Source of the DNA: Turneriella parva
GTDB lineage: Bacteria; Spirochaetota; Leptospiria; Turneriellales; Turneriellaceae
Assembly: GCA_020719945.1 (NCBI GenBank)
Contig: DYPL01000021.1
Location: 1 to 36,583 of the forward strand
DNA: 36,583 nt
Direction of reading: 5' to 3'
Each line of letters starts with the position of its first letter. The stretch's first letter is position 1. The notes beneath the pieces are model-generated. The model had not been told where the DNA came from, ran no database searches, and saw only the letters and a program-made list of their open reading frames with translations. Both the position numbers and the translations under genes were made by a program. Below, piece by piece: positions 5,160 through 23,321 of this stretch.

Positions 5160-5500
5160 TTACCGCGCGACTACAACGGTTCCACGGTAGCGTTTTCCTT
5201 CTGCCTCTATAACATACTGGTATACCCCTCCAGGAACCAGGGCGCCTGCTTCATCGCGGCCATCCCAGTATACGCTACCCTGCCCTGTGTCCGTATCTTT
5301 TTCCCAAAGTTTCACGCGCCGACCGCGCAAATCGAGAATGGCAATTCTGTATTCCGAGGACGGATTAGGCAAAGTAAAGGAAATCTTCATGTGTCCAAAT
5401 GTTTTCTCGCCACCCGCCATCTCATCCGCTCCACTGTAATGGGAATCGGTTCTGCCGGGAGTAAACACTCTCGGAAACAAGGTAACGTTGGCAATCTCTC
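5160..5500 (-). other. C-terminal FlgD/CHU_C-like domain of the 2909-aa protein
   Basis: This segment encodes the last ~110 residues. It opens with a PRVFTPG motif, continues with a strand IAILDLRGRRV, a WDGRDEAGALVPGGVY turn, and ends exactly at the C-terminus with YRGTVVVAR. This order is shared by FlgD Ig-like domains and by the CHU_C/type-B sorting domains of type IX secretion. The segment at 13893-14205 has the same order. Whether it sorts, anchors or is only structural is not shown by sequence. Confidence 0.65.
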
Positions 5501-8500
5501 CACCGCCAGAAAGCGGCATCACCGTATATGTTCTGTGCATGTAAGAAATCTCCGCCGTTACCGTATTCTCCGTGCTGTCAACTTTTCCACCCATGGGAAC
5601 CCATTTCTTTCTTGTAAAATCCCAGTAATGAATCCCAAAGCTGTCCTCGCTCCAGCCATTGGCAGAAATCAGAGAATTGTCATAAGCGAGAATGAGCGTT
5701 GCATCTTCGCGCAGCTGGTTTTCTACCACGGGCTGAATGCCGCTTCCGTTATCGAGTTCGTTAACGAGATTGTAGACGGGATGCGTTGCCCGGTTTGCCG
5801 ATGGCATGGAATAGGCGGTCATTTGAGCTTCAGCGTCCGACAGCAGACCCCACACCTGCGACGCAGTCTCCTCTATGCGAATATTGATTCTTGGCGAATT
5901 ATCCAAAGCTCCCGCCGGTAAAATGATTTTGCTTTTCCCGTCCAGAGGAGCTATTACCGTACCACCTGTTTCAGCCGACAGCTGTCTGTATTTCACTTCG
6001 TAGGGACCCGGCAGAGTTACGGTCAGATCCATGGCTGCATTCGATACGATCGTGAACTGCGACCAGAGATTTTTCTCTGTTTTGGTTTTCAGATAATCTT
6101 CGCTCTCGAGATCCGCATCCGATGAGCTTGCCTTGATTACATAGGTTGTGCCTGCGGGAATGCGATCGAACACGAACTGGCCGTATTTTTCTCCCGAACG
6201 CGTCACAGAAATTGAAGGCGATATATCCAGTCCGAGTATATCTTTTGCTGTAGCGAGGCTGCCCGAAGTATTCGTATACAGCGAGAACGACAAACTTCTC
6301 GATGCAGGCGCCACCTCTCCCAGAATTCTTCCAAAGGGTGCTTTTCTCAAATGAAAATATTTTTGTCCGGAATCTTCGACGATTCCCGCTCCTCCCATCT
6401 CAAACGTGGCAACAAGAGATGTCTCCATTTGAATATTTTGTGTGACATCTCCATCGAAATAGGTTAGGAAATTGGTGCCAGGGGAACCATCTACCTTATA
6501 CGAATCCGTTGCGTTTAAAATGTTTTTGGAAACACTTCCCCCAGGCAGCACGGAGGGCAGCGTATTTTTCCAAGCGAGCGTAATGGTGAGGGTATCGGTT
6601 TCTCCTACGGCAAGGTTTCCCACCCCAGTATAATCTACCGCAAAACGCATGGTCTCTTTGACTGAATCTGTTCCTAATACCCCAAAGCCATTTCTGGTAT
6701 CCTGCCAATTCACAGAAGAGACTGTTCCTCCTTTCGATGACGTAATGGCGGCAATCTGAATATAATCCGAAAGATTTGCCATTACCAGTGAATTGGGCGC
6801 CACGATAATATCGAGCTGCGACTGCGTGATGGCAAAATTGCTCGATGCATTTTTTATCTGATACGTTATCTTAAATGTATTGTCATACGCAGTCTGTGCA
6901 GCCGATCCAAAATTGTCTATCAGGTAGCCGGCAAATCTCGCATCGCAGGCAACCTCTAAAGAAGGCGCAGATGGCGAACAGTTATTCTTGAGAATTTCAA
7001 GATCCGCTGCGCGCGAAATATCCGTCACAGAGGGATCCACAAAATAGACTATTTTACCCTTTGCTTTGTAATCGTCAGGTACAAAGGTGAGACGCAGCTC
7101 TCCCGTAGCTTGCGTTCCTTGGGTAAGGCCAGAATTGTCCGTTAAGTTTATCCAGCCATTCGTATTTGCAACAGAAGCATTGTCATTAGAGGCGCCGGTT
7201 GCCGTAATCGAAGAATGGTTATCCGCGTAGGCCTGAATAGACAGGCTTTCGTTATTTCCCAGATCTTCCATGATAGTAAATGTAATGGTGTCGGACTGGC
7301 CCGGCAATAGACCACCATCGTTTTCATAGTTAAGGTATACAAAATAGTCGCTGCTCCCGCCATCCTGAACGACACTTACATTGACGGCATCATTACTAAT
7401 AACCGAAGAACTCACATTAGAAACTCCACTGATAAGCCCAGACAACCTCGGAATGACAATCTTCGCGCGATAGATTCTATCCTCAGGTCTGTTGGCTAAA
7501 GCAACGGAATTGGTTACAGTCAAATTGTAATCCGTGTGGGTTCGCGGGCCGGCCTCCGGGCCCGTCAGCGTGGTAACCGGCAAAGAAGCCGTAACGCTGG
7601 CAGCATGCTGCACCAGAGATAGACGGTTAGATCCATTGGGAAAAGAGCGTATATACGCATATCCACCGGAGCTCGTATTGAAAGCAGCCGATGCTTTAAA
7701 ACTAATCGCTCCACCGCTCGTTTGTCCAGACAAAGCTCCCCCCGGACAGATCAACGTGCCCGTGGTTCCACTGCGCGAAATCAACCCGCAGGCATCGGCC
7801 CGGTCGTTCATGGCCAGAGAAGCCGCACTAAAAAAGGAGTCAGATACATCTGTTATCGTGATCGTATCGCTTTCTCCAACGGGAACAGGAACGGTATACT
7901 GAATCTCAATATAATGGTCTTTATTAAAGGCATTCAATTCTGTCGTTTCTATGGCTCCTTCTACGCCGACCGTGTCGTACTGATCCAAATCTTCGTGGAC
8001 GGTAATAATACCTCCACGGCTACTCGTAATCGTCGCAGAATCCAGATCAAAATATCCTGGCAGAGCAACGCGAAGGCTACTAAGCGTGTTTCCCGTCATA
8101 GAACTGTTCGTCAGTAAAAACGAAAAACTGTTCTTGGAAGAAGCAGCGTCTATGGAACTGCCACCCGCGACACCATTGACAGAATTCAGAACAAAATTGG
8201 CACTGTATGTGGGCGAAACAACGGCAAGCTCGGCGGAATAACCAAAGGGAACGGGATCGCCGCCCGCCACTATATTCTCGGTCGCGTCATAGTTTCCGGA
8301 GGATACAGACCAGTTTACAGAGGATGTTGTCGTTTCCGCATGCGAAGCAGAAAACGCAATTTTTAGACTCTTCCCCTGTTCAATGCGCGCTGATTCAGCA
8401 AGGGTAAAAAGGAGCGTTTCTCCCGCAGAGAGGGAATAATCTCCGCCGGACTCGACACTCGCCACCGTAAAATCTGTCGTCGCAATGGTAGACCAGCCAG

Positions 8501-11500
8501 ATTCATCGCTGCCAGTATTGCCTTTTTTTAGTACAAAATTATTCTCATCTAAAGTACAGGCTGCCGAATCCGTACAACCAGCAAGAGCTGTCAGTAAAGC
8601 CGGAGCCTTAATGCGGAAAATGCGCAGATCGTTGGAGAGTTCTCCCTGGTTTTCAAAGTAAACATTTTGCGTCCACGTATAATCCGGGTTTCCCGGATTG
8701 ATTCGGTAGGCCTCGTTAGGATTTGCATACGCTATAAAAGAGGGTTCTGGATTTCTTGAAATTGTTTTGTCCCATGTAATACCGGCGTCTCCCACTCCAG
8801 AAACAGGAGACAAAGCGGCGGGAGCAGAAAGATCCGATTCCGCTATATAGGCAATGGAATCATCTGTAGAATCGGGATTTAATTTTCCGGCAAAAGCAGG
8901 CCCCGGCAGGTTCGTATAAGAGTATGTTCCAGTATTGAGAATGTCCGTAAAAAAGTCTGCGTGCGCCTTCCACAATAATTCTTCTGCATTTAAGTGGGTT
9001 CCCGGAATATTAAAATTGCGGTTTTCGCGCACGCGGAATTCTAAAGTAGCCGTTGCCGCTGTCAGCTTTCCACCGGGAAACGTGACAATCCATTCGCCAC
9101 CAGAAACTGACATGGAAGTTCCCGAAGGCAGAAAATCCACGGTATCGAGAGAAGATGCATCGAACACCGATGGCGGAATAATTTTAACCCGCGCGAGTTT
9201 CTGCAGTCCCGCATTTCCCGCAATGGTCATCTTAAAGCGATGATACGAAGTATTCGGAACTGTTACAGCAATGCTCTGGTTGTCTATCCGAGAGGGCGGG
9301 TTTTGCGGATCACCTGTTTTTTCAAGAACTTCTACTTTGATTTGCGGTTCCGCTACAAAAGAAACCGTCGTAAGCGAAGCAGGCAGGGATTCCTGGTTTC
9401 CGCCAAACAGATTTCCGTCATTATTATCAAAACCAAGGACAAACTGTTTTGTCGTCTCTGAACCTGTATTGTGCGACCATTTCAAAAGAATCGTGTCTTT
9501 AGAATTTGAAGCCGTATCTAACCAAGGAATCGAATACGAAGACGAATTATCGATTTCAATTTTTTCTGTTGGGCCAGCACAACCTCCGCCAAAACCATCT
9601 CCCCCGGAACAGGTCACCCCGCTGCCCACTCCATAGCGGGTTGAAACATCGCCTGCCGCCGCAACAGTTACTCCCGAGGGAAGAGCAATCTGAATTTTAT
9701 AAATATAATTTGTAGTTCCACTCACAGCCGTATTTTGTACATAGAAACGGCTCTGGTGCGTTCTCGAAGAAGACGTGGTATACGCCACTGCAGGTTCTAC
9801 AATACCCGTGGCCAGACCCGGCGGAATCTGGTACAGAATAGAATTGTCTTCTGTTAATCCATCGTTATAGGTATCATCTCCATCAGATCCATTATAGACA
9901 GAGGCCAACACAGATTTGCCTGTATTGCTCGCAGAAACCTTGTTATAGCCATACAGCTTTAAGGCCTGCAGAGAGTTCGTCGAAACCGTATCGGCAAAAG
10001 AAAGCTCTACTATGTCTATAACAGAAAATCCAGCACCGGCAGAGGGAGGCAGTTCATCGCCAGATTCATAGGTTATCGTAAGTTTGCTCGTTGCGCCATC
10101 CCAGATGGCAGAAAAATCCGTTCCAGAAACAAGTTCAATCTGCGAAGCACCGGGATTCCATGTTTCTCGATGTATCGAAGAAACTGCCGGAACGCCAGAC
10201 ACAATGGCGGGAAACTCTATATCCACTTTATAAATGTTGTTCCCAGCCAACTCAGAAGGATTCTTAACATAGACTTTTACAGAAGAGGTAGATGACGTTG
10301 CATTCACTTCGTACACTTCTGACTGCGCCAGATCCGATGTTACAAAAGACTCCAGCGCGGGATCTGGATATTCCAGTATTGTTGTGAGCCTTGAGCCCGT
10401 TTTCTCGCGAGCATAAGAAGTTACTCCCGACGAATTATTTAATTTCGCCCGAAATGTTCCGGAGCGAACCGTATTGTTTCCATCGGAGCCGACATTTGTC
10501 ACAGTCTCGTATATTCCATCGCTGTTAGAGTCGCTGACAGTATAAAGAGAGTCCGCGAGTCCGGGATTGGCCAGATTGGAATTTTGCCGTATGGTAAAAC
10601 TAATCAGGTCGCAGGGAACATTGCTCTCGCCCGGGCATACGGTTCCACTGATTGTATCCTGATCTGATTTTAAGACATATCCTGCTGTGGAATAATCGAT
10701 GGTAACCTTATGGGTCACATGATCCAGAGAAATATGGCTGGCATCCGAAGCGCAATCGCTCGATGTTCCCCCGAGCACATTCAGATAACTGCTGCAAACG
10801 TCTACAATACCATAATTTCCACTGCCCAAATCTTCATCGAAAAAGGCTGGTATGTCTATGACGACAGAATCGATATTGTTAGACAGGCCCCCCTTGTTTA
10901 GAATCTTCATGTGGATATTTGAAATATTGCCACTGCTGATTTCGCTGGTAAACACGAGTGGCGACAAAAACTGATCTACCTGAATAGATTTGTCGCCCCG
11001 GAATAGAAAAGCCTCGCCGCGAGGTTCCGGAGGGGTAAACGAAAGCGACCAGCTTGCAGCCGGGTTTTCCGAGCCATCCGTATACTGCGGATACGGATAT
11101 GCCGGGGCCACCGAGTAATTTTCGTTATCTGACCTGTGTTTTATCGCATACTGCACAAGAGCTACATTGGTATCGCGAAAATAGCGCAGATTCATATTGA
11201 CAGCCAGTGTAGAACCAGAAGCCAGCGGAGAACCAGATAAATCGAGCCGTACCACTCTGTAGGTATTTCCGCCAATCGTTTCATTTCCGACTATGGTAAT
11301 CGTGGGAGTCACCGCGCTGCCATCTGCCAGCACGGAAACAATATCTCCCGAATTGACTGTTTCAAAATTTTCTCGGGTTGCCCCGGATGTTCCATCGCAG
11401 GTTGCTGCCTCGGGTCCCAAACCATCGCAGGTATAGGTTTCGTAGGGAATTAATAACTCGAGATTCTTTACCTGGTTAGAGGCACTCCCCTGGTTTTTAA

Positions 11501-13889
11501 CATAATACGTGACATTCACCGCAGATGGATTGTTCCCGTTCGCATTATTGCTGGCCACATTGGTATTGAGCCAGGCAATCGTCTGGGCTGGCGTTGCGCG
11601 CACCAGTGTTTGGGTGTTGGCGGCAACTCCATTATAGGCCGTTGCCGTCTGCAGTGTGGTTCCCTCTACATAACCGGGCGATTCGCCCTGTGCCGTCCAG
11701 TTTGCCGTTATCTGAGAAGCTGCAGAAAATTCTGGCGCAGATTTAAAGAAGAAAGTAAGTCTATCGTATCCGGATTTTCCTGGAATATAATAGCTGCTCG
11801 TATAATGGACGACGAGTTTTCTGTACGCAGGCGACGCGGCATTTGTATAATAACAATACGTATATGTCCCCATGGTGCAATCGTCAAGGTCGTCTGCTGC
11901 ACCCGAAAAAACCATCATCTTACCTGCCGTTTCCAGCGAATCGGGGATGCGCAGGGAATCGATAATGGACGAGATATTGCTACCATCTTTGAGTTCAAAA
12001 TTGAACGGCTGCAAATCCCCCTCGGATGGCATTTGCAGCACAGCGCGGGTTATTCCGGGTCCCGAACTGGCTGCATCGGTCCGCAGTTCAATGGTGGCAA
12101 ACGGAAGCAAATCCCCCCAGTAGAGAGGATCCGGACTTACGCTGACTGCCATATTGAGAGCAGGCTGGGAAAATATTTTTACCTGCAAAGCCGATGCGCT
12201 CGCTGGTGATGCCTTCATTCGGTGCGTCGTCGCGTAGCGCAGACCCGCAGCATTGAGAGCAAATTCCGGCGCAGTATCACTGAATTTCTGGTTGTCTACC
12301 CAGGCTGTAAACTGCTGGCCATCAGAATCTACATTGGCAGCGGAAAGAGTGAAATACACGCGTAAATGAGCGCCGGCTCCCAACTGCTTAAACACCTGGT
12401 TATCGGCACCGGAAGTTTTGCGAAACCGCAGTACTGCAATGGAACCCTGCCCCCCCGTGGCAATGGTTTCGGCAGTATCATTGTTGACAGAGAAGGCAGA
12501 AAAGTTTCCGGAGGAAGGATTATTGGCATTGCCACTATACGTAAGTCGCACTTCTCCAGCGCCGTTACAGGCTTTTCCGCTCGATGCATCGGCATCGTTA
12601 TCCTGGCAAACCACTATATTGGAAAAATCCCAGTTGCTTCCGTTAAATAATTCTCCCGCTGCATCCGGTTTCTGGATATAAATTTCACCCACCCCGGCAT
12701 CGGTTGCATTCATCGAAGGAGTAATTTGTAGGGCATATTCCTGTGCAGTGGCAACCAATGCGCGGATCTCCCCTCCGTATTGGGGAGAGGTAAGCTTCAC
12801 CGAGGCACTTTGCGCAACGGGACGCACGAGGTAGTGATCATAAGCCGCAGATACATTTTCGGTTAGAAAATAGAATTGCTCTTGTCCCAGCATCACCTTC
12901 ATGTTGGAATTGAAAGGCACAGACTTTTGCCCTACGTAATGCCACGAATTGGCATACGCAGTATAACTGCCACCATCACTTTCGGGATTGGGATTTATGT
13001 AAAACCGCACGACAGAACCGTCATGCGTCATTCGAAAACCAATTTTTCGATTGTTCGCTCGTCCACAACGGTTTCCGGTGAAATAGACATCTCCATCTGT
13101 TTCGTTATTTTCGTTGTCATTGTAAGACGCGTTGTTATTAGTATCTGAATCCGTGCATCCAATGGCATCGCCATCGAAAGGAGCACCCGAAGTGAACAAC
13201 AACCCGGAATTATCTGGATTTAAATTGTTTACGGATTTTTCTGGACTCGATGCCTGCGTTAAATCAAAATCATTTTCTGAACCCGAAAAATATCCTAATC
13301 GGCTCGATGCCTGATTTGACTGCTGAAACTCATAGAAATAAATAAAATTGGACAGAGTGGAAAAATCGTAAGAGCTATAATCGGTACCCGCAGGAGAAAA
13401 TGGACCATTCATGGAGGATAACCCCGAATTTTCGATAAGCCAGATATTCAATGCTGCCCGGTGATACGTTGTATCTCCCTGTACCTCGTTATTGGCATCA
13501 ATCACGGAATAATAACGAATAACCTGGAAACCAAAAGGTTGCTCAGGACTGGCACTGTAAGTGGAATCCAGTCTGGCTACCCTGCCTGTCCAATAGTTAT
13601 TATATAGAAGATCTCCATTGCTCGGCATATCTTGAATGTGAAGAACAGAATTATCACTGAAACCGGTTGATGTGCTCATACCAATAGGGTTTCCAGCGGT
13701 ATAAGCCGCCCAACCGCCGTGATCTACATCTAAAAAGCCACTGCGCCCATACGGAAAATTCATGCACCAGTTATTGGCACTCCCGCAGGTGTTATTGGCA
13801 CCATCAAAACTGTCATGGTATTCGCTTAACGCAAAAAGTGGCAGTCCAGAAAACAGAATGGTTATAAGTATTTTTTTCATTGTCTTCAT
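5160..13889 (-). CDS. Giant secreted repeat protein with C-terminal FlgD/CHU_C-like domain (2909 aa)
   Basis: The signal peptide (MKTMKKILITILFSGLPLFALS) is followed by a lectin/ConA-like domain (about residues 22-360). About eleven beta-rich repeats of 180-210 residues follow (about 400-2480). Each opens with a strand-turn-strand such as YYVKNQGSASNQ or VYVKNPSELAGNN, then a hydrophobic strand ending in 'IP' or 'LP'. Next come a carboxypeptidase-regulatory-like domain (about 2500-2630), a domain beginning with a PAGAL-type motif (about 2640-2790), and a final 105-residue FlgD Ig-like domain (VFTPG..., WDGRDEAGALVPGGVYQYVI, RGTVVVAR). Composition is rich in Ser, Asn, Thr, Gly and Asp, as in adhesins. 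The first ATG is used because GAGG lies 6 bases upstream, inside the stop of the preceding gene, implying coupling. Most likely a surface or extracellular structural protein or adhesin; no enzyme motif was recognised. Confidence 0.85.
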   Translation of the reverse strand: MKTMKKILITILFSGLPLFALSEYHDSFDGANNTCGSANNWCMNFPYGRSGFLDVDHGGWAAYTAGNPIGMSTSTGFSDNSVLHIQDMPSNGDLLYNNYWTGRVARLDSTYSASPEQPFGFQVIRYYSVIDANNEVQGDTTYHRAALNIWLIENSGLSSMNGPFSPAGTDYSSYDFSTLSNFIYFYEFQQSNQASSRLGYFSGSENDFDLTQASSPEKSVNNLNPDNSGLLFTSGAPFDGDAIGCTDSDTNNNASYNDNENNETDGDVYFTGNRCGRANNRKIGFRMTHDGSVVRFYINPNPESDGGSYTAYANSWHYVGQKSVPFNSNMKVMLGQEQFYFLTENVSAAYDHYLVRPVAQSASVKLTSPQYGGEIRALVATAQEYALQITPSMNATDAGVGEIYIQKPDAAGELFNGSNWDFSNIVVCQDNDADASSGKACNGAGEVRLTYSGNANNPSSGNFSAFSVNNDTAETIATGGQGSIAVLRFRKTSGADNQVFKQLGAGAHLRVYFTLSAANVDSDGQQFTAWVDNQKFSDTAPEFALNAAGLRYATTHRMKASPASASALQVKIFSQPALNMAVSVSPDPLYWGDLLPFATIELRTDAASSGPGITRAVLQMPSEGDLQPFNFELKDGSNISSIIDSLRIPDSLETAGKMMVFSGAADDLDDCTMGTYTYCYYTNAASPAYRKLVVHYTSSYYIPGKSGYDRLTFFFKSAPEFSAASQITANWTAQGESPGYVEGTTLQTATAYNGVAANTQTLVRATPAQTIAWLNTNVASNNANGNNPSAVNVTYYVKNQGSASNQVKNLELLIPYETYTCDGLGPEAATCDGTSGATRENFETVNSGDIVSVLADGSAVTPTITIVGNETIGGNTYRVVRLDLSGSPLASGSTLAVNMNLRYFRDTNVALVQYAIKHRSDNENYSVAPAYPYPQYTDGSENPAASWSLSFTPPEPRGEAFLFRGDKSIQVDQFLSPLVFTSEISSGNISNIHMKILNKGGLSNNIDSVVIDIPAFFDEDLGSGNYGIVDVCSSYLNVLGGTSSDCASDASHISLDHVTHKVTIDYSTAGYVLKSDQDTISGTVCPGESNVPCDLISFTIRQNSNLANPGLADSLYTVSDSNSDGIYETVTNVGSDGNNTVRSGTFRAKLNNSSGVTSYAREKTGSRLTTILEYPDPALESFVTSDLAQSEVYEVNATSSTSSVKVYVKNPSELAGNNIYKVDIEFPAIVSGVPAVSSIHRETWNPGASQIELVSGTDFSAIWDGATSKLTITYESGDELPPSAGAGFSVIDIVELSFADTVSTNSLQALKLYGYNKVSASNTGKSVLASVYNGSDGDDTYNDGLTEDNSILYQIPPGLATGIVEPAVAYTTSSSRTHQSRFYVQNTAVSGTTNYIYKIQIALPSGVTVAAAGDVSTRYGVGSGVTCSGGDGFGGGCAGPTEKIEIDNSSSYSIPWLDTASNSKDTILLKWSHNTGSETTKQFVLGFDNNDGNLFGGNQESLPASLTTVSFVAEPQIKVEVLEKTGDPQNPPSRIDNQSIAVTVPNTSYHRFKMTIAGNAGLQKLARVKIIPPSVFDASSLDTVDFLPSGTSMSVSGGEWIVTFPGGKLTAATATLEFRVRENRNFNIPGTHLNAEELLWKAHADFFTDILNTGTYSYTNLPGPAFAGKLNPDSTDDSIAYIAESDLSAPAALSPVSGVGDAGITWDKTISRNPEPSFIAYANPNEAYRINPGNPDYTWTQNVYFENQGELSNDLRIFRIKAPALLTALAGCTDSAACTLDENNFVLKKGNTGSDESGWSTIATTDFTVASVESGGDYSLSAGETLLFTLAESARIEQGKSLKIAFSASHAETTTSSVNWSVSSGNYDATENIVAGGDPVPFGYSAELAVVSPTYSANFVLNSVNGVAGGSSIDAASSKNSFSFLLTNSSMTGNTLSSLRVALPGYFDLDSATITSSRGGIITVHEDLDQYDTVGVEGAIETTELNAFNKDHYIEIQYTVPVPVGESDTITITDVSDSFFSAASLAMNDRADACGLISRSGTTGTLICPGGALSGQTSGGAISFKASAAFNTSSGGYAYIRSFPNGSNRLSLVQHAASVTASLPVTTLTGPEAGPRTHTDYNLTVTNSVALANRPEDRIYRAKIVIPRLSGLISGVSNVSSSVISNDAVNVSVVQDGGSSDYFVYLNYENDGGLLPGQSDTITFTIMEDLGNNESLSIQAYADNHSSITATGASNDNASVANTNGWINLTDNSGLTQGTQATGELRLTFVPDDYKAKGKIVYFVDPSVTDISRAADLEILKNNCSPSAPSLEVACDARFAGYLIDNFGSAAQTAYDNTFKITYQIKNASSNFAITQSQLDIIVAPNSLVMANLSDYIQIAAITSSKGGTVSSVNWQDTRNGFGVLGTDSVKETMRFAVDYTGVGNLAVGETDTLTITLAWKNTLPSVLPGGSVSKNILNATDSYKVDGSPGTNFLTYFDGDVTQNIQMETSLVATFEMGGAGIVEDSGQKYFHLRKAPFGRILGEVAPASRSLSFSLYTNTSGSLATAKDILGLDISPSISVTRSGEKYGQFVFDRIPAGTTYVIKASSSDADLESEDYLKTKTEKNLWSQFTIVSNAAMDLTVTLPGPYEVKYRQLSAETGGTVIAPLDGKSKIILPAGALDNSPRINIRIEETASQVWGLLSDAEAQMTAYSMPSANRATHPVYNLVNELDNGSGIQPVVENQLREDATLILAYDNSLISANGWSEDSFGIHYWDFTRKKWVPMGGKVDSTENTVTAEISYMHRTYTVMPLSGGGEIANVTLFPRVFTPGRTDSHYSGADEMAGGEKTFGHMKISFTLPNPSSEYRIAILDLRGRRVKLWEKDTDTGQGSVYWDGRDEAGALVPGGVYQYVIEAEGKRYRGTVVVAR
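6450..12690 (-). repeat. Array of ~11 degenerate 180-210-aa coding repeats in the 2909-aa protein
   Basis: Matching strand motifs occur near nucleotides 12670, 12030, 11500, 10890, 10240, 9720, 9220, 8640, 8090, 7490 and 6840, about 500-650 bases apart. The recurring element is [FVY]-x-[VL]-x-N, a polar turn, then a hydrophobic strand ending in P. DNA identity is low, so these are old protein-level repeats rather than recent tandem DNA duplications. Confidence 0.6.
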
Positions 13890-13892
13890 GGT

Positions 13893-14205
13893 TTACCTCG
13901 CAATCACAATGGTACCCCGGTACCGCTCTTCTCCGGCGCGAATCACGTAGACGTAAATTCCGCCTTTTACCATATTGCCGTTATCGTCGCGGCCATCCCA
14001 GAAAATCTGGCCGCCTCCCGTATCGCCCGGCTTTTCAATAAAATACACCCGCTTGCCCTCTACTGTGTAAACGGCAACCTCAACGGAATCGGGAGAACCG
14101 TTGATTGTATAGGTTAGCGACACGCGGTCAAAATTGCGGCTTCCCTGTCCTGGCGTAAATACGCGCGGTGAGACTGTTACATCGGCTATGGTACCACCAG
14201 AAGAA
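13893..14205 (-). other. C-terminal FlgD/CHU_C-like domain of the 2735-aa protein
   Basis: The last ~103 residues show the order PRVFTPG, VEVAVYTVEGKRV, GGGQIFWDGRDDNGN, GGIYVYVI, RYRGTIVIAR, ending exactly at the C-terminus. The same blocks occur at the end of the downstream paralogue. The terminal position and conservation between two otherwise divergent giants suggest a common sorting or anchoring role. This is inferred by analogy with the type B C-terminal domain of type IX secretion. Confidence 0.65.
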
Positions 14206-17200
14206 TCAGCACCAAAGATTCCATAATATCTATTGAGAGTGCTCACGCTGATGGTTGCCGTATTAGCGGCAGCATCTATTTTGGAGCCAATTTTGATCCA
14301 TTCGCCTCGGTATAGATCATAGGCAAACACGGAGAGATTGTTCTCACTCCAGCCGGCTGCTGTAATAATCGCTTCGTCATAAGTAAACGTAATCGTTCCG
14401 TTAGCTTCTGTCTCGTTGATTCCCTTATTGAGTTCGCGGTGCAGCAGATCCATTGTCTCAATGGAATTTCCACTGGCATCCTGGAGATCTAACGCAAATA
14501 CGGGAACGTTAGGCAGCGCTGTAACAGACGGTTTGCGGATATTCTTTTTTCCGGCCAATATGGCAGAAGAACCAGTCGGAGCATACTTCACATCCCATGC
14601 ATGGGTAGAGGCTTCCCACTGCGAAAGTTTATAACATTTTGGTTTAACGAAAAATGTCTCATTGATGGCTTCTCCGGGAATTTCTATGATGGCGCATTTA
14701 TCGGTGCCATCGCGGCCCACGGCTATATTTTCGTCCGAACCGCCAACGCTGAATGGAGCTTCTTCGAGAGTGAGTATATCCCCCAGATCTTTGATTGTAT
14801 TGCGATCCAGAACTATTTGTTTGGATGCCGTGATATAGCCGGGAGCGGAAGCTTTCAGGACAATGGTTTTGGTGGCAGAACAGGAGCTACCAGCAATGTC
14901 CGTACACATGGGAATTCCCTTTCCAGCACCGCCAATCGATGGATCGGAAAGCGTGCTGCTTCCGCCGGTATAAGTAATCTGTCCCACACCCGATGTGGTA
15001 TTGACCACCAGGGGATCAGAAGAAAAATCTACTATGGCCGTACCATTGGGTTCGTACAGAGATACAGAGACCTGAATATTTTCGTCTTTTACATTTTGCT
15101 TAGGCAGGATTGTACCGGATATGCCTGCAAAAGGAGCGGTAAGAATGGAGAAATTTCTGTCTCCCGTTGCGGAAATGCAATTGGTTGCCTTGTTTAGCAG
15201 ATCATCCGTGACGTTAGAAACAAGTGAATCACAAATGCCTGTCTGGGGAATGCGGGTTTCTAAAGCAAAGTCGGCAGGGGTTGCAAAGCTGCGCTTCATG
15301 GTTCCAGAAAGCGTAACGGTTACGGTATCTGTGGCATTGGCCGCAAGCTCAGTTCCAGTTCCATAGTTGACCGGTATAACATAAAAGTCTGGACCCGCTG
15401 CAGGACCCAGTGGTCCAGCGGTAGAAGAAGATGCCACAACCGAGCTTACCCCAAACTCCGATCCCGGAACGCGAAACGCAAAGAATGGCAATACTGCCGC
15501 GCCATTGGTCACCTTGACTTTGATCGTGTGCGAAAAGGTGCGGTTATCGGCTTCGTTAGAGTAACTGTACAACGTATTTCCCTCGACAACTTCCACTTCT
15601 ACCTGGGATGGCGGCGATGTAAACGTATGAGAAAGCGTTCCGTTAGAAGCAAGATCTGCGGTCTTGTACGTGCTCACCGCAGCACAGGGCTGATTAGAAA
15701 TTTCTACCGTCCATGCGGGCGGTGTAGCCGGAAGAGACAATACTTTGTAATCTACCGGTATTTCGATCTGAACTTTTTCTCCTGGATCCAAAACAGGTGA
15801 ACCCGCATTACAAAACGAAACCGAAAAATTGTTAGAGGATATGGAAGAAAAGTCCTCTGCACCGGCTCCGGTAATATCACCACCGCTGAGCAAAGTGGCT
15901 GTTATCTCGTTACTGAGCAGAGTAGCATCGTTCCCATCCCAGCTGCCATTTTTATCGGGATCCTTCAGGTAATCGGCTGCAAAACCGGGGAATGTAATTT
16001 TAACGGAAGAAATTGCATTGGTTCCGTTTCCCTTATTCTCCACATTCAGCCGGATTTTTCGTTTATTTCCAGTCGCCACTACAGATGCATCTGTCTCGTT
16101 CTGGTAACCATACACGGAATACCATGCGCCGGCTGTAGCCAAGAGCTGCCTATCTGTGTCAATCAGCGTTACCCATGCCGATGGATCGGGTCGCTTTAGA
16201 TAGATCACATCGCTCTTTCCCGTTAAAACGGTAGCAGTATAATTCTGGGTATAACCGGTAGAAAAACGCCCACTCACGGCAAACCGATGCGCAGCGGTTA
16301 CAGTAACCGGATAAACCGAAGCAGAATCGGCAATGGCTGTATCTGAACTTTCTAATCCCGAAAAACGAACTTCCACAAAACTGTCTCTTGGAATGATCGC
16401 TGCGGCACTCGTAAAGGTGACAATAAAATCCGCTGCATTTGAATCTGCTGCTGGATCGAGAATTCCGCCCGCACAATCACCGCTGCAACTGAAATCCATT
16501 CCATCTGTAAACAGTGTGCCGTCGGCATTATATAACGCATAGGTAGAATTGCCATCCGCCTTAAATACGGATAGCGGCAGGGTAACGGTGATTTGGTTTA
16601 TCTCTGCGCTGGCGTGTCCTGCGTTGCGAACCAAAAGACTCACGGAATGATCTACCCCGCTTTTGTACAGGATGATTTGACTGGCAGTATCTCCATCCCC
16701 TTCATTGGTTTTTTGCACAAAAATTTCCGAAGCGTGAGCAGGTTCATAAAAATAGAGAATCAGGCTTCGGCTGGTGTTCCCCGTTCCCTCGGTGACCGGA
16801 GTTGTCGCCGTTGTGAGCTCAGAGCCGGCGGGATCATTGCTGACGCTCACGGTAAACGCACCGGAATTGCCGCTTGCCGGTGTGTTGAACGTTGCCGCAG
16901 TGTTAATTTCTATTAGACTGCCTTGGGTCGCTACTCCCTTTTTAAACTTCACAATGATATCTTCTGCGTCGGAATTGTCGTCGTAGCAGAAATCCCCCGT
17001 TGAAAAATCCCAGCCATCGCACTGGCCCGCTGGAGTAACAGTATTGGCTGCCGACAAGGGAGTTCCATCTTTCTTAAGCGCGAGTACGGTTTTATCGAGA
17101 TTACTTACCAGCGCCGGACCGCTGATGCGGATATACTGCATGTCGTTGCCAGCAATAGCACTCTCGTTTTTCACAAAGAAACTCAAGGCTCCATTATCTA

Positions 17201-20200
17201 GACTCGTATCTCCGAGCGAACCCCATGCGGGAAACAGATACGACAAATGATTTTTGCGGTTGTCGAAGACATCCGTATTGACAGATAGATAAGCAGATGC
17301 CGGCATGGGAGGCAGAATAAATTCGGTGGAAATAGATCCCCCACTCACAATGCGGGAGGAGAGATCGTACCAGTCGCCACCGGTTCCCGTAAAATTTTGC
17401 GGCAAATCGGCAACTGAATCTGTTGTACCGTCCCTGTATACCGCCTCGGCAGTCCATGTATGGCTGCCTGCAGAAAAGTTGTCTCCCGATGGATTTTTCT
17501 TAAACGATATAGAAATGTCGTCAATATCTCCAGCCGCAAGTCCAGAAGAATACTGGAGAACCACATATTTGCAGGCCTCCAACTCATCGCAGGTTCCATC
17601 GTCATTGCCAATGCCATCCGTTAAAATTTCATCATACCCCGACTTAGACTGATTTCCAAAAGCGGTTGGGTTGCTGCCCAACTGCGTTGATTCAATATTC
17701 GAAACAACAAATCCTCCCGGAACAGCAATACGCGCTTTTGCAATGGCAGCAGCTCCAGACGGATTTTCGTTCGTCAGGCGATACAGTATTTGTCCCACGG
17801 AATCGGTAGTGTACAGCTTAACGGGATTTCCCGGCGAAACCGTATTTTTATCCAAAGAACTGGTCAGGCGCGTGAGGCCCTCTTTATTGATAAGCAGAGA
17901 CAGCGAATATCCATTTTTCGCCGTGCCCGAATCGTAAACCAGGGCATCTGGAGAAGAATCGTTAGTTGCGCTTACCGACCAGAGTGAAGAGGCAGAAGTA
18001 TTATATAGATGGTTCAGCGTAATCTCTAAGTTATCGGTACCAGAAGCCAATAAACAGCCAACGGTATAACTGTCGTTGGGACAATCGGCAAGGCCTTCGT
18101 AATTCACAAGCAGATGATCTCCATTATCTGTAACAGTTGCCCCCAGATTAGAGTTGCCACCATTATCTATGCTGGAAATTTTTCCCTGCCACGCAGAAGG
18201 AATCTCTATTTTAGCCTGGTATATATAATTGGTACCCACTCCGCTGTTTTTGAAATGCAAATAGGCTTTGACGGACGTAGCTGAGCTGACGGCAGGCATG
18301 GAATTAACAGCCGCTGCATTGCTCAAAGACAAATAAGCCTGAATCGATGCCTTAGGTTTGGATACGGAAACCTCTACCTGCTGCGTGCTGTTGGCCATTT
18401 TTGCCGTAGAAGCAGCAGGGATAAAATCAGCAGAGCCGTCCGATGGATACCAGGTTCCACCTGTTGCAGCTGAAAATTGGTTATAGCCGCGTGAGCGCAG
18501 AGAAATTATCTGGGAAGACGGCATAGCTCCCTGAGAATGGCCCATCTTCAACTCTATGTAATTGTCTGTGTCGTCTGTGTCTACCCCGCCTGCGCCAGAA
18601 AAATCGCACTCAATATATTTGTTTGTGTAAGCTGCATCTGCGGTACAAGTCACGCTTGCAGAGTTTCCGTTTACAAAGCCAGTAACTGAATCAAAGGCCT
18701 TACTGTCTCCCGTGGCTAGCCACGCAGTATTGAGAGCATCGGCACCCGCTGAGTCCCAGAGAGTCTCTGCATCTTTGCGAATATACAGGCGCAGTTTGTT
18801 GATGGAAGCTCCCGCCATTCCCGTGTTCATAAAATAATAACGGATTGTATTTTGTCTGCTTCCGTTGTCCCATGCAAGAGATTTATCGATGAGTAAAGGA
18901 TTGCTCTCATTATCAGCAGAATCAGCATGGGAACAGCGACCGGGTTCCGGAGAATAGTGGCATACCTCTGCATACCCGACAGCGTTCAGAGGCTGGTAGA
19001 CAAAGTCTATTTCATTCGCAGAAGCAGAAAGCGCAGCTGTATTTTTATAGTCTGCCGTATCCGTAGAATTGCTCACCTGCGATGCAAAAGCATAGGAAGA
19101 TAACGCGTTGTTATTTTCTACAGCATCAAAGGTGATTTCATCGAAATTTCCCGGAGCGACAGGCGTGGCATACGTTATGGTAATCTCGTTACCGGCCACA
19201 ACGGGAGTGCCTCCCCGCGCAGAAGTAACATTAGAAATGGAGGTGAATACCGCCGGAACAGAAATGCGAGCCATTTTGATACTGTTTCCAGCGTTGGTAG
19301 AATCTTCTGTTTCGGAAGGGTCAAACAGTTTGTAACTTATGCGAACGGAATCATTAGAGCTGGTAACGTATAATTCGCGGCTTCCCAATGGATCTTGTAT
19401 CGGATAAGAAAACCCGGTGCTTCGCCCGGCTTGTGCCTTAGCGCGCGGGAAAGGATTGACATAAGAGAGCGTATAGGTACCGGCAGAATCCTGCGTATAA
19501 ACATTATCGGTCAAAGCATCTCCGTTGCCGTTGTCAATGTTTCCATCAATGTCGAACGCTGATGTTCCAGAAAGAGTCGCAACGGAATCTTTCAGCGTAA
19601 TGGTTGCAATCAGGGAATTTTTTGCACCGCTGCTGCCTAAAAGTCCCAGATTGCCAACTCCACTCCCCTTTATTCCATCGAGATAGAGCGTAAGAGTTTT
19701 GGCTCCGGAAGTATTGTCAAAAACAATTTTAGCTGGATGGGTTGTATTCGTAAAAGAGAACGATTCCCCTCCCTGAACCACGCTCACAGAAACGCCCGTA
19801 ACCGAAGTAATCACATCTGGTAAATTGAGACGAACTGTTTTTATATTATTTCCGTCCTTTCCCTGGTTTGTAAGCTGAAAGGATACATCAGAAGAATCCG
19901 TATTATTGCAAAGGGTATAGTTGGGTTCCGCCGGCGGAGCATTGGGTCCATACGCCGCTGCATTGGAATTGCAGGCAATAGAAGGCGAAATCATGGCGGT
20001 GGCAACCGGTTTGGCAGGGCGCAATACAAAGAACTGACCAAACGCCGGGAATATTCCCGTTGTAGTATCGGTGGAACTCGCAGACAGAGAAGTGTTATAA
20101 ACCCGGCTTTTTATGCGAAAATAGGAGGGAGTAGTAACCGATGGAGTTGCCGTTCCGGGAAAGGTAATTTTATCCAGACCGCCGTCTCCAGGAATCATGG

Positions 20201-22100
20201 CGGAAGAATTAAACTGCACAACCGCCGTATTGCCAGCCAGCGAAGAGCTTAATCCAGCGTCGAGCAAACTGGTGGCAAAGTTAGTTCCACTCACACCAAA
20301 ATCTGACCAGGGGACTGCTGCGTTGACGACATAACAATCCGGGTTTGTGGCAGAAATACCAGCACCCGTACAGGTTCCGCTGCCTTCTGTATACGTCTGG
20401 CTGTACATTTCAAATTCTACTTTGTCTATTCCAGAATTATTGGGATCGTTTGGCGTTGCTATGTAATTTGCAAGATCCTGCGGAAAGCCCACGTAAAATA
20501 CAGAGGGAGAAAACGCGGAATACCCGACAGGCAGATCCAGCACTTTTACCTTGAGTAGATTTGCCGTCCAAGTATGCGCATTGCCGGCGCGCACCTTCTG
20601 CCACCCTGTGGTTGCATAGTGAAGTCCATCGGTTCCGCTTGTGTTATCTGTGTGCGAAGCATTGTATTTTTCGTTTCGCGCAAAAATGCCAAATTCCGCT
20701 CCGACCGCATCGGGAGTTGCTGGAGCCGTAAACGTAAACGTGATGCCAATGCGCTTTTCGGCATCGCCGGGTTTGATGACATCGTTATCGGCAGAAGAGA
20801 CGGCGCGAAATCTTAAAATGAGATCGTTGCCGCTGGTACAGGCATCTACCCCACCGTCGGCGGGAACGCTGTAAGAACAATCCGCACCCTTGTTGTTTAC
20901 TGCATGGCTTTTGAGAGCGGCTATTTCACTCCAGGCCGCACCACCGCCATGGGTAGTATACACGCCAAAGGAATTAATATTCCATGCTGCATAAACAGAA
21001 GGTTTGGCAATCTTAATCTCGGCAATGCCGGCATCGTCTATATTGAGCGTTGGGCTTATGACCATGGAGAATGGCACGACATCTCCGGCGCGCACCTGCG
21101 TTGGATTCATTTCAGCATAGGTGGTTTCTCCATCGGCAACCGAGCGAACGAGAAGATTGTCAAACGTGACAGCTTGGCTTTCTGTATCGGCTCTGGCAGA
21201 TTCCACCCCAAACATGAATTTTAAGTTATTGCTGAAGGTTGCTCCTACAGAACCCGTTTCTATATATTCATTTGGAAGACTGTCATTGTCATCGGGATCC
21301 GGATTGATAAAGAAACGAATTGTATCCCCATTGTGAACCATCCGAATTCCAATGAGATTGGTATTGACAGGATTTGCATTGAGTGTACCATTGTCGTCTG
21401 CGCCTCCCCCGGAATTATCAAAACACGCTCCGCCTCCGCTCTCGCAACTCGAGTACCTGTCATCGTAATTCCACTCTACCTGCTGGCTGCCAATACCCTG
21501 GTAACTGAGATCTATTGTTGTATTATCTGGTCGAACGCTGGAAACCATAGAGAAATTAGTCTCTGCAGCATAATAATATCCCCACATGCTCAGGGGCAAA
21601 CCTGTTGTACTCCAATCGTTCGGAGACTGGTATGCAGTGCGCTGAGAGCGATAGATCTCGTACATGTAGGTAAAATCAGATAAAACCTGACCACCTCCGG
21701 TAAAAATGGCTTCATCGCTGTACAGATAAAAGCTCATCCCACTCATGTGCCTATGCGATTCTGGATTGGAAGTATCGTTGCTCGGATCCAGTCTCGCGGC
21801 TGATTTTATTACCTGAACGCCAAACGGTTTTTGCGATGAAGCAGAATAGGTGTCACCTTCCCGCTGCATTCTTCCAAGCCAGATTCCATAAAGCGACCCA
21901 TTCTGATGCATTTTATTGTTGAAAACAAGTACACCAGATGCAATGCTTTCGTCCAATGATGAGGAAGCAGTCGTTGTTGCCCCATCCCGCCCATACCAGA
22001 CAACACTCGTCGCGCCACCGCTGTAATCGTTATAATAATAAAAACTTGTGGCAGACAAAGAACTAAAGGCTATGAGTGCCGCAGAAAGTAGTCTCAACAT
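13893..22100 (-). CDS. Giant secreted repeat protein with C-terminal FlgD/CHU_C-like domain (2735 aa)
   Basis: This is a paralogue of the next gene downstream. The signal peptide (MLRLLSAALIAFSSLSATS) is followed by a lectin/ConA-like domain (about residues 20-325) with motifs shared with its neighbour: YSASSQKPFGVQVIK here, YSASPEQPFGFQVIR there. About eleven repeats of 160-200 residues follow (about 350-2290), opening with segments such as FQLTNQGKDGNN, LHFKNSGVGTN and LNVENKGNGTN. A regulatory-like domain (about 2320-2445), a PGEAI domain (about 2455-2620) and a final FlgD-like domain (SPRVFTPGQGS, WDGRDDNGNMVKGGIYVYVI, YRGTIVIAR) complete it. The start directly follows the stop of the barrel gene (TAA-ATG) and its GGGG ribosome-binding site lies within that gene's end, so translation is coupled. 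Likely exported to the cell surface; the role (adhesin, sheath or filament) is unknown. Confidence 0.85.
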   Translation of the reverse strand: MLRLLSAALIAFSSLSATSFYYYNDYSGGATSVVWYGRDGATTTASSSLDESIASGVLVFNNKMHQNGSLYGIWLGRMQREGDTYSASSQKPFGVQVIKSAARLDPSNDTSNPESHRHMSGMSFYLYSDEAIFTGGGQVLSDFTYMYEIYRSQRTAYQSPNDWSTTGLPLSMWGYYYAAETNFSMVSSVRPDNTTIDLSYQGIGSQQVEWNYDDRYSSCESGGGACFDNSGGGADDNGTLNANPVNTNLIGIRMVHNGDTIRFFINPDPDDNDSLPNEYIETGSVGATFSNNLKFMFGVESARADTESQAVTFDNLLVRSVADGETTYAEMNPTQVRAGDVVPFSMVISPTLNIDDAGIAEIKIAKPSVYAAWNINSFGVYTTHGGGAAWSEIAALKSHAVNNKGADCSYSVPADGGVDACTSGNDLILRFRAVSSADNDVIKPGDAEKRIGITFTFTAPATPDAVGAEFGIFARNEKYNASHTDNTSGTDGLHYATTGWQKVRAGNAHTWTANLLKVKVLDLPVGYSAFSPSVFYVGFPQDLANYIATPNDPNNSGIDKVEFEMYSQTYTEGSGTCTGAGISATNPDCYVVNAAVPWSDFGVSGTNFATSLLDAGLSSSLAGNTAVVQFNSSAMIPGDGGLDKITFPGTATPSVTTPSYFRIKSRVYNTSLSASSTDTTTGIFPAFGQFFVLRPAKPVATAMISPSIACNSNAAAYGPNAPPAEPNYTLCNNTDSSDVSFQLTNQGKDGNNIKTVRLNLPDVITSVTGVSVSVVQGGESFSFTNTTHPAKIVFDNTSGAKTLTLYLDGIKGSGVGNLGLLGSSGAKNSLIATITLKDSVATLSGTSAFDIDGNIDNGNGDALTDNVYTQDSAGTYTLSYVNPFPRAKAQAGRSTGFSYPIQDPLGSRELYVTSSNDSVRISYKLFDPSETEDSTNAGNSIKMARISVPAVFTSISNVTSARGGTPVVAGNEITITYATPVAPGNFDEITFDAVENNNALSSYAFASQVSNSTDTADYKNTAALSASANEIDFVYQPLNAVGYAEVCHYSPEPGRCSHADSADNESNPLLIDKSLAWDNGSRQNTIRYYFMNTGMAGASINKLRLYIRKDAETLWDSAGADALNTAWLATGDSKAFDSVTGFVNGNSASVTCTADAAYTNKYIECDFSGAGGVDTDDTDNYIELKMGHSQGAMPSSQIISLRSRGYNQFSAATGGTWYPSDGSADFIPAASTAKMANSTQQVEVSVSKPKASIQAYLSLSNAAAVNSMPAVSSATSVKAYLHFKNSGVGTNYIYQAKIEIPSAWQGKISSIDNGGNSNLGATVTDNGDHLLVNYEGLADCPNDSYTVGCLLASGTDNLEITLNHLYNTSASSLWSVSATNDSSPDALVYDSGTAKNGYSLSLLINKEGLTRLTSSLDKNTVSPGNPVKLYTTDSVGQILYRLTNENPSGAAAIAKARIAVPGGFVVSNIESTQLGSNPTAFGNQSKSGYDEILTDGIGNDDGTCDELEACKYVVLQYSSGLAAGDIDDISISFKKNPSGDNFSAGSHTWTAEAVYRDGTTDSVADLPQNFTGTGGDWYDLSSRIVSGGSISTEFILPPMPASAYLSVNTDVFDNRKNHLSYLFPAWGSLGDTSLDNGALSFFVKNESAIAGNDMQYIRISGPALVSNLDKTVLALKKDGTPLSAANTVTPAGQCDGWDFSTGDFCYDDNSDAEDIIVKFKKGVATQGSLIEINTAATFNTPASGNSGAFTVSVSNDPAGSELTTATTPVTEGTGNTSRSLILYFYEPAHASEIFVQKTNEGDGDTASQIILYKSGVDHSVSLLVRNAGHASAEINQITVTLPLSVFKADGNSTYALYNADGTLFTDGMDFSCSGDCAGGILDPAADSNAADFIVTFTSAAAIIPRDSFVEVRFSGLESSDTAIADSASVYPVTVTAAHRFAVSGRFSTGYTQNYTATVLTGKSDVIYLKRPDPSAWVTLIDTDRQLLATAGAWYSVYGYQNETDASVVATGNKRKIRLNVENKGNGTNAISSVKITFPGFAADYLKDPDKNGSWDGNDATLLSNEITATLLSGGDITGAGAEDFSSISSNNFSVSFCNAGSPVLDPGEKVQIEIPVDYKVLSLPATPPAWTVEISNQPCAAVSTYKTADLASNGTLSHTFTSPPSQVEVEVVEGNTLYSYSNEADNRTFSHTIKVKVTNGAAVLPFFAFRVPGSEFGVSSVVASSSTAGPLGPAAGPDFYVIPVNYGTGTELAANATDTVTVTLSGTMKRSFATPADFALETRIPQTGICDSLVSNVTDDLLNKATNCISATGDRNFSILTAPFAGISGTILPKQNVKDENIQVSVSLYEPNGTAIVDFSSDPLVVNTTSGVGQITYTGGSSTLSDPSIGGAGKGIPMCTDIAGSSCSATKTIVLKASAPGYITASKQIVLDRNTIKDLGDILTLEEAPFSVGGSDENIAVGRDGTDKCAIIEIPGEAINETFFVKPKCYKLSQWEASTHAWDVKYAPTGSSAILAGKKNIRKPSVTALPNVPVFALDLQDASGNSIETMDLLHRELNKGINETEANGTITFTYDEAIITAAGWSENNLSVFAYDLYRGEWIKIGSKIDAAANTATISVSTLNRYYGIFGADSSGGTIADVTVSPRVFTPGQGSRNFDRVSLTYTINGSPDSVEVAVYTVEGKRVYFIEKPGDTGGGQIFWDGRDDNGNMVKGGIYVYVIRAGEERYRGTIVIAR
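15240..21040 (-). repeat. Array of ~11 degenerate 160-200-aa coding repeats in the 2735-aa protein
   Basis: Equivalent strand motifs lie near 21020, 20410, 19850, 19290, 18810, 18230, 17755, 17145, 16600, 16015 and 15490, about 480-610 bases apart. Unit count and order of motifs resemble those of the neighbouring giant gene, which suggests duplication of the whole gene followed by divergence. Confidence 0.6.
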
Positions 22101-23321
22101 TTACTGCCCCTTTGATTTTACCTTAATCTTTGCTTTTCCGTTTTCTGTTTTGGGCGGTGTCGTTTCCTCGGGTGTCTCAGGAGTCAAGTCTTCCTTAACG
22201 TCCAGACTTCTCTGCACCTTTTGTTTTGGCAGCAAATGGGAATCGAACTTGTATTTATAGAGAAGAGAAACATAATACCGGTGGTCCGCTCCCATGCCAT
22301 TGAACATACTCGACCATGCCCAGGCCATATCCAAATCTACGCGATGTTTTTGAGCGGGGTCTATGGCGCGGCCTATCCCTAAACCAAAATCGAACTCCGA
22401 GTACTCCATATCTCCCATGGAAAAACCGCTGCGTGCAGCCACTTCGATCTCTGGAATTTTGTACCACGATTCCCAGCCCACATGGTACGTATCCGTTCCC
22501 GCCAGATTAGACGTAGAATTTGCGCCCTGGTCTGCTGGAGAGATCATTTTCCAGGCGCCGTTGATTGTAATGTCCTGTAACAGGGGAAGAGCACCAATGT
22601 CGCCAAAGGCATACGAAAGGCCAAGTATGGTATTGGAAGTGAGCCGCTCTCCGTCTTTAAAGGGAGAAAGCGAAGTCGGAAGCAGGTTTTCCACAATGAC
22701 AGAGACGAGAATATCATCCGAAAAATTATAGATTACGCCTATATCGGGAGAAAAGGCAGCCGAATCTGTATTCTTAAAGGCAGCGTTGTTCTCTACATCC
22801 TGTCCAGCAAAACTGAGCATATATATATTCCCCGTAATTCCAACAGAAAGGCGCGCTCCTTTGAATAAAACGTCATCGAGTCGTTTGGCATAAGAGAGAC
22901 CCACATAGCGCTGGGCAACCGTGGCCGTGCCATCGCCCGAATCGTACGACTGCTGGATAAAAGAAAGCCCAAAACCTGCGTCTGTGGTAATAAAATCGTC
23001 TACCCAGCCCGCCGTTTTCAAATTCACTGGATTGGCAAAAGGTGTAACTACGGACATATCGAACTGAAAAAGCGATGAGCCATCGTCAAATTTAGTAAAT
23101 CCTCCAGCCGGCTCAAAAACCGACATCATGACATCGACGGTTTTCTGATGAGCAATGGAAGCAGGATTGTAATACAGGGATGCAACGCCATCGAATGTGC
23201 TATAAGAAGCATTCCCCATGGACTTGCCTTTTACCGACTGCCTGAATTCCTCAAACCAAGGAAACGCGGATTGCGCCATCAAAAAAATGGCGGTTATCAG
23301 TAGTATCCGAATTTGTTTCAT
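22101..23321 (-). CDS. Outer-membrane beta-barrel protein, PorV/UPF0164 (FadL superfamily)-like
   Basis: This 406-residue protein has a clear signal peptide (MKQIRILLITAIFLMAQSAF). The mature N-terminus KGKSMGNASYSTFDGVASLYYNPASIA is the hallmark of the FadL/PorV/UPF0164 group (GNA...DG..LYYNPA). The rest consists of alternating amphipathic strands (for example RYVGLSYAKRL, NTILGLSYAFG, YYVSLLYKYKFDS) that fit a barrel of about 14 strands. After the last strand a charged Pro/Glu/Lys tail of about 40 residues (365-406) would project into the periplasm, which is unusual. PorV in type IX secretion carries substrates through their C-terminal domains; UPF0164 proteins in treponemes are FadL-like transporters. 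Being the first gene of an operon with two giant exported proteins favours a role in their export or display. The start is supported by GGAAGGAGCA before the ATG. Confidence 0.75.
   Translation of the reverse strand: MKQIRILLITAIFLMAQSAFPWFEEFRQSVKGKSMGNASYSTFDGVASLYYNPASIAHQKTVDVMMSVFEPAGGFTKFDDGSSLFQFDMSVVTPFANPVNLKTAGWVDDFITTDAGFGLSFIQQSYDSGDGTATVAQRYVGLSYAKRLDDVLFKGARLSVGITGNIYMLSFAGQDVENNAAFKNTDSAAFSPDIGVIYNFSDDILVSVIVENLLPTSLSPFKDGERLTSNTILGLSYAFGDIGALPLLQDITINGAWKMISPADQGANSTSNLAGTDTYHVGWESWYKIPEIEVAARSGFSMGDMEYSEFDFGLGIGRAIDPAQKHRVDLDMAWAWSSMFNGMGADHRYYVSLLYKYKFDSHLLPKQKVQRSLDVKEDLTPETPEETTPPKTENGKAKIKVKSKGQ

Follow-up and report, generated by a model that had tools for sequence, protein, structure and literature searches.

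The window analysed here is the whole 36,583-nucleotide contig DYPL01000021.1 of Turneriella parva (contig 25 of a 2.42-Mb assembly that is 100% complete), and this work concerns a three-gene unit on its minus strand, in which the gene of an outer-membrane barrel (P0001) is followed by the genes of two giant exported proteins (P0002 and P0003) that end in the same immunoglobulin (Ig)-like domain. On the basis of sequence comparison over 149 genomes of the phylum, with the source of the window (G000) hereafter called the own genome, we read the unit as the likely cargo and shuttle of a divergent spirochaete system for outer-membrane export that is SprA-based (type-IX-like), at a probability of roughly 0.72. 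The gene anatomy, the neighbours and the genome context fit a shuttle-and-cargo unit that would work with a SprA-like channel, and the system it most resembles is the SprB/SprF unit of the Bacteroidota, a giant type B adhesin with a PorP/SprF-family shuttle. An earlier note on this DNA had proposed a parallel or divergent type IX export unit; the core of that proposal is strongly supported by co-occurrence, adjacency and the presence of SprA, but what we find falls short of a complete type IX secretion system (T9SS) of the known kind.

Layout of the unit

The features of the unit are as follows.

22101-23321, minus strand: P0001, outer-membrane barrel of the PorV/PorP (FadL-like) superfamily, presumed shuttle or anchor (406 residues; translation and family profiles)
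22104-22241, minus strand: C-terminal tail of P0001 rich in Pro, Thr and Lys, about residues 361-406, presumed periplasmic, with no Cys (by eye)
13893-22100, minus strand: P0002, giant exported protein 1, presumed cargo (2735 residues)
13896-14189, minus strand: terminal Ig-like domain of P0002, presumed sorting signal (FlgD_ig above cut-off; terminal-domain profile E 1.5e-37; AlphaFold model)
5160-13889, minus strand: P0003, giant exported protein 2, presumed cargo and paralogue of giant 1 (2909 residues)
5163-5495, minus strand: terminal Ig-like domain of P0003, presumed sorting signal (FlgD_ig above cut-off; terminal-domain profile E 8.4e-36)

The earlier note had described three genes at these places, in a spirochaete-like genome, with a touching stop and start and a ribosome-binding site inside the end of the upstream gene, and all of this is real: the open reading frames (ORFs) all lie on the minus strand, the TAA stop of P0001 abuts the ATG of P0002, and a Shine-Dalgarno-like AAAGGGG stretch lies within the last P0001 codons. 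P0003 starts 3 bases past the stop of P0002, with a ribosome site, AGGT, that spans the last Arg codon of P0002 and its stop. Judged by eye, all three proteins have signal-peptide-like N-termini that lack a lipobox cysteine. The two giants are homologous over residues 10-889 (25% identical) and over their last 174 residues (P0002 2562-2735, 38%).

Co-occurrence and adjacency across the phylum

The association of barrel and terminal domain that the earlier note had put up for checking is borne out. Of the 149 genomes, 21 have the barrel and 22 have strong terminal domains (E<=1e-24, a cut-off chosen after viewing the list, loosening of which to about 1e-11.6 adds just G012 among the matches listed), such that 20 genomes have both, one has the barrel only, two have the domain only and 126 have neither (Fisher 1.5e-21, kinship not corrected). 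Ten family labels are spanned by the barrel and nine by the domain. At E<=1e-5 the terminal-domain profile reaches 100/149 genomes, and among the weak matches there are OmpA/Lsa66-like proteins some 900 residues long and probably FlgD. One weak match in the own genome is a 900-residue Lsa66-like OmpA protein on contig 130 (L043:9-2711) with an internal FlgD_ig/CHU_C-like domain.

The gene of a protein with this C-terminal domain (CTD) adjoins the barrel gene on the same strand in 16 of the 21 barrel genomes, with a gap of 0-56 bases (240 in G040). The cargo gene comes first at 13 of these loci and the barrel gene at three, all of the window's family. Because the unit is conserved in other genomes, chance is excluded as its origin. 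Two CTD giants stand in tandem at nine of the 16 loci, and the remaining seven reach the contig end first. In a tree of 22 of the 24 giants, first genes group apart from second genes, each in a clade of its own, in the Brevinematales-like and related families, and the pair is therefore old in those lineages; the pair of the window's family forms its own split, on long branches. Since the two-giant arrangement is conserved, it suggests that the two giants work together on the surface, as a heterotypic adhesin or filament. In genome G026 the tandem giant pair occurs in two copies about 0.9 Mb apart (L198/L199), away from the barrel, and in G012 a CTD protein gene is touched by another FadL-like gene.

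A SprA-like channel in the same genome

A search for SprA/Sov, which the earlier note had named as a check, finds a homologue, P0007, in the own genome (contig 28, 1969 residues; TIGR04189 127.6 bits, E 2.9e-37, cut-off 200). Matches to TIGR04189 at E<=1e-3 occur in 56/149 genomes of the phylum and in 0/14 named controls. A SprA-like protein is present in 20 of the 22 CTD genomes, the two exceptions being 76-78% complete, and the genome of one SprA carrier, G026, is assembled as one contig of 2.5 Mb. All 25 SprA-like loci that were retrieved hold an ORF of 1873-2289 residues, and a profile built from 23 of these 25 proteins, when searched against 177,635 PDB sequences, finds solely SprA at E<=1 (E 6e-32). 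The profile aligns in three colinear stretches, to residues 137-314, 418-884 and 991-1529 of Flavobacterium johnsoniae SprA, with the last third unaligned.

A scan of named contigs yielded 41 SprA-like loci, nearly all from uncultured Spirochaetota. Single loci carry the names of Elusimicrobiota, Fibrobacterota and Hydrogenedentota (L149, L151 and L119) and of Bacteroidetes, some of which may be binning errors. Contig 28 of the own genome also carries a lipoprotein-like protein of 1853 residues with Laminin_G_3 and DUF1554 domains (L042:10132-15693).

The barrel family

P0001 clearly belongs, by family profiles, to the PorV/PorP superfamily. The earlier note had called it PorV-like, which is upheld at the level of the family, as all 17 aligned barrel relatives match the PorV/PorQ family model NF033709 (PorV_fam) and 11/17 match PorP, but not for the best single model: the first NCBIfam match of P0001 is the PorP/SprF family TIGR03519 (E 3.8e-10, 39.7 bits vs a cut-off of 90.55) and the second is NF033709 (E 2.3e-6, 27.4 bits vs a cut-off of 90). 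NF033709 alone is a poor marker, as it matches 112/149 genomes. When the P0001 family was compared by hhalign with the strong spirochaete PorV_fam proteins, whose nearest solved relative is PorV (E 5e-5), the two aligned with a probability of 99.3 and an E of 1e-20. Searched against the PDB, the P0001 family profile retrieves PorV first, followed by FadL-family chains. The relatives have similar tails rich in Pro, Thr and Lys, with no conserved Cys in the 17 aligned and 0 Cys in P0001 as a whole. A single-sequence AlphaFold model of the barrel had a predicted confidence (pLDDT) of 30.5 and was discarded.

The terminal domain of the giants

Both giants end exactly with the same FlgD/CHU_C-like domain, as the earlier note had it. 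In Pfam, FlgD_ig (PF13860) is above its cut-off at the very C-terminus of each (E 2.2e-6 and 5.4e-8), CHU_C, a type IX signal, stays sub-threshold (18.3 and 16.1 bits vs a cut-off of 27), and the last 100 and 113 residues of the two proteins are 47% identical. All 22 aligned members of the terminal-domain family match both FlgD_ig and CHU_C (E<=1), 13/22 match Por_Secre_tail, and the domain is the extreme C-terminus in every strong profile match. The type A model TIGR04183 does not reach its threshold on the giants' own terminal domain, and the type B model TIGR04131 has no match on P0002 or P0003 up to E 10, in a search in which the HMMER filters discard the majority of weak matches.

The AlphaFold model of the last 105 residues of giant 1 (pLDDT 87.7) is a seven-strand Ig sandwich, seven strands being the layout given for type A CTDs in passages of PMC12618676. 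For the modelled domain, VIA-align ranks the PorU C-terminal domain first (Z 11.5, 2.6 A over 96 residues), and PorZ is found at Z 10.3. The 50 matches listed by each of Foldseek and VIA-align contain no gingipain-type CTD, which excludes nothing. The predicted fold thus agrees with a CTD identity and does not prove it, because unrelated Ig folds score 10-11 as well.

Comparison with known systems

The likeness to the SprB/SprF unit consists in the gene of a giant CTD protein beside that of a PorP/SprF-like barrel, with SprA in the genome, and in a barrel that lies downstream of the giants at 13 of the 16 adjacent loci, as published for sprF; according to passages of PMC12618676, a position immediately downstream of a type B CTD gene is common for porP/sprF genes. 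Unlike that unit, the present one has two giants, no TIGR04131 match and none of the motor parts that were tested, and in the window's family the barrel is upstream of the giants. P0001 also lacks the Cys-X-Cys motif of the SprF tail, which links SprF to GldK in the account given in part of PMC12635249.

The substrates of PorV with type A CTDs are resembled in the modelled seven-strand Ig sandwich, such as ends PorU and PorZ, in the match of 17/17 barrel relatives to NF033709 and in P0008 (below), a type A CTD protein elsewhere in the genome that neighbours a PorV-family barrel, whereas the giants' domain falls short of TIGR04183 and no PorU peptidase was found. As for the SprA/Sov translocon, P0007 and its relatives match it in three colinear stretches but are shorter (about 1970 vs 2403 residues), cannot be aligned by profile in the C-terminal third and stay under the TIGR04189 cut-off. 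The FlgD Ig-like domain PF13860 matches the terminal domain at the level of sequence, but here it ends giant exported proteins whose genes adjoin that of a barrel, and it has no hook-cap context.

By analogy with SprF and the giant adhesin SprB, the unit may work as follows. Sec would carry both giants into the periplasm, where the barrel would recognise the terminal domain at the SprA-like channel, dock on the channel and take the giants out through it, and the barrel could then retain them on the cell surface.

Points against, and rival explanations

Several results weigh against the reading of the unit as cargo and shuttle of a SprA-based system. The PorV match of the barrel profile in the PDB has an E of 0.016 with no single stretch significant alone, P0001 as a single query finds no PorV in the PDB, and the barrel matches are below the curated subfamily cut-offs, as are the giants' CTD matches. 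Among solved structures the terminal domain is closest in sequence to FlgD (E 1e-6), ahead of PorU (E 0.003), and generic, unrelated Ig folds at Z 10-11 tie with PorU in VIA-align. None of the SprA-like matches in the 56 genomes is above the curated TIGR04189 cut-off, a few being weak (E 1e-5 to 5e-4), and P0007 as a lone phmmer query finds no SprA in the PDB. At the level of genomes, the barrel has no adjoining cargo of this kind in 5/21 (G014, G026, G045, G002 and G012), and the examined stretch of G040 has a PorV-like gene with no neighbour of the P0008 type.

The same side of the balance holds the known T9SS parts that were searched for. GldM (TIGR03517) was detected in 0/149 genomes (Bacteroidetes control E 6e-113), and among 23 carriers GldL (TIGR03513; control E 1e-57), GldN (TIGR03523; control E 2e-57; no GldK search was made) and the C25 peptidase of PorU (PF01364; two sub-threshold matches; control E 1e-101) were over their thresholds in none. 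The Bacteroidetes control matched all four models, and so the searches work, although very divergent forms could escape them. These negatives cover GldM, GldL, GldN and PorU; PorK, PorT, PorG, PorW/SprE, SkpA, PorQ and PorZ were not searched for. The PorL, PorM, PorN and PorU homologues that the earlier note's proposal led one to look for were thus not detected, and because none of the motor, ring and sortase components searched for was found, we do not file the unit as a T9SS.

An unlikely alternative is that the barrel is a surface anchor only, that the giants leave by another route and that the cargo of the SprA-like protein is different, for example the type A protein P0008. This would account for the 36 of 56 SprA genomes without this giant cargo and for the giants that lie away from the barrel in the f18 genomes, and PorP-like proteins have been proposed as anchors in Porphyromonas in passages of PMC9143113. 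Against this stand the presence of SprA in 20/22 CTD genomes, the exceptions being incomplete, and the lack of any further secretion component observed alongside the unit. At 29-36 kb the RND/TolC genes form an efflux pair, which was rejected as a type I route, and the giants have no C-terminal autotransporter barrel, which removes the autotransporter route.

Slightly less probable still is an ordinary FadL/TraF-like barrel beside big Ig-repeat proteins that are periplasmic or on the surface and end in a FlgD-like domain, i.e., a conserved operon with no secretory role. FlgD_ig is the domain's best Pfam match, P0001 matches PF13729 (TraF_2) at E 0.0018, and FadL-family chains come right after PorV in the PDB search; all three points would fit. 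This explanation does less well with a domain that is at the extreme C-terminus in all strong matches and whose 22 aligned members all match CHU_C also, with a barrel pairing kept in both gene orders over several families, and with the presence of SprA.

Descent from a Bacteroidota T9SS that was gained by horizontal transfer and is now decaying would explain why the motor, ring and sortase parts searched for were not found, but is very improbable in view of long intact ORFs at 25/25 SprA-like loci, a gene neighbourhood conserved within the order, first and second giants that fall into distinct clades in several families, and a broad distribution over the phylum. The same four observations speak for an old, maintained system. 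Within the reading of the unit as cargo and shuttle of a SprA-based system, we tentatively propose, at somewhat under even odds, that spirochaetes hold an old, maintained SprA-based pathway that displays a conserved pair of giants and has no PorLM motor, PorKN ring or PorU sortase, with energy perhaps from another source (e.g., another ExbBD/MotAB-type motor, or the folding of the giants outside).

A possible second barrel-cargo pair and possible expansions

A second possible shuttle-cargo pair was found by family profiles in the own genome:

contig 87, L161:6779-11152: P0008 and a PorV-family barrel

The ORF of P0008 (940 residues) encodes a Calx-beta domain and a C-terminal type A sorting domain (TIGR04183, 25.4 bits, cut-off 23), and its gene touches that of the barrel (62.1 bits). 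In other, uncultured lineages of the phylum, the type-IX-like cargo appears greatly expanded: genomes G012, G025 and G036 each have at least 13-14 PorV_fam matches and at least 32-33 CTD-like matches.

Place in the literature

T9SS genes are stated to be absent outside the Bacteroidota or the Fibrobacteres-Chlorobi-Bacteroidetes (FCB) group in passages of PMC11285876 and PMC4793230, and such genes are stated to be absent in Treponema denticola in a passage of PMC11833123. We found no report of SprA or a T9SS in Spirochaetota in the open-access literature searched, and excerpts of PMC10266427, PMC12045153 and PMC12236494 hold nothing on either in spirochaetes. A SprA homologue in 56/149 genomes, together with shuttle-like barrels and CTD cargo and with no detectable GldM, alters the FCB-only picture and puts forward a route by which spirochaetes could display giant proteins on their surface. 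It makes testable which type IX parts are core (channel, shuttle and signal) and whether SprA extraction can be powered without PorLM. If the motorless SprA pathway is true, type IX would be one branch of a wider class of secretion by SprA, shuttle and CTD.

Other genes of the window

The window has no Rfam matches. Its RND pump (29814-33875, minus strand, 1353 residues) has, past position 657, some 300 additional residues with the look of a beta-propeller (weak Pfam propeller matches), and genome G090 has an ORF of 1352 residues at the equivalent place.

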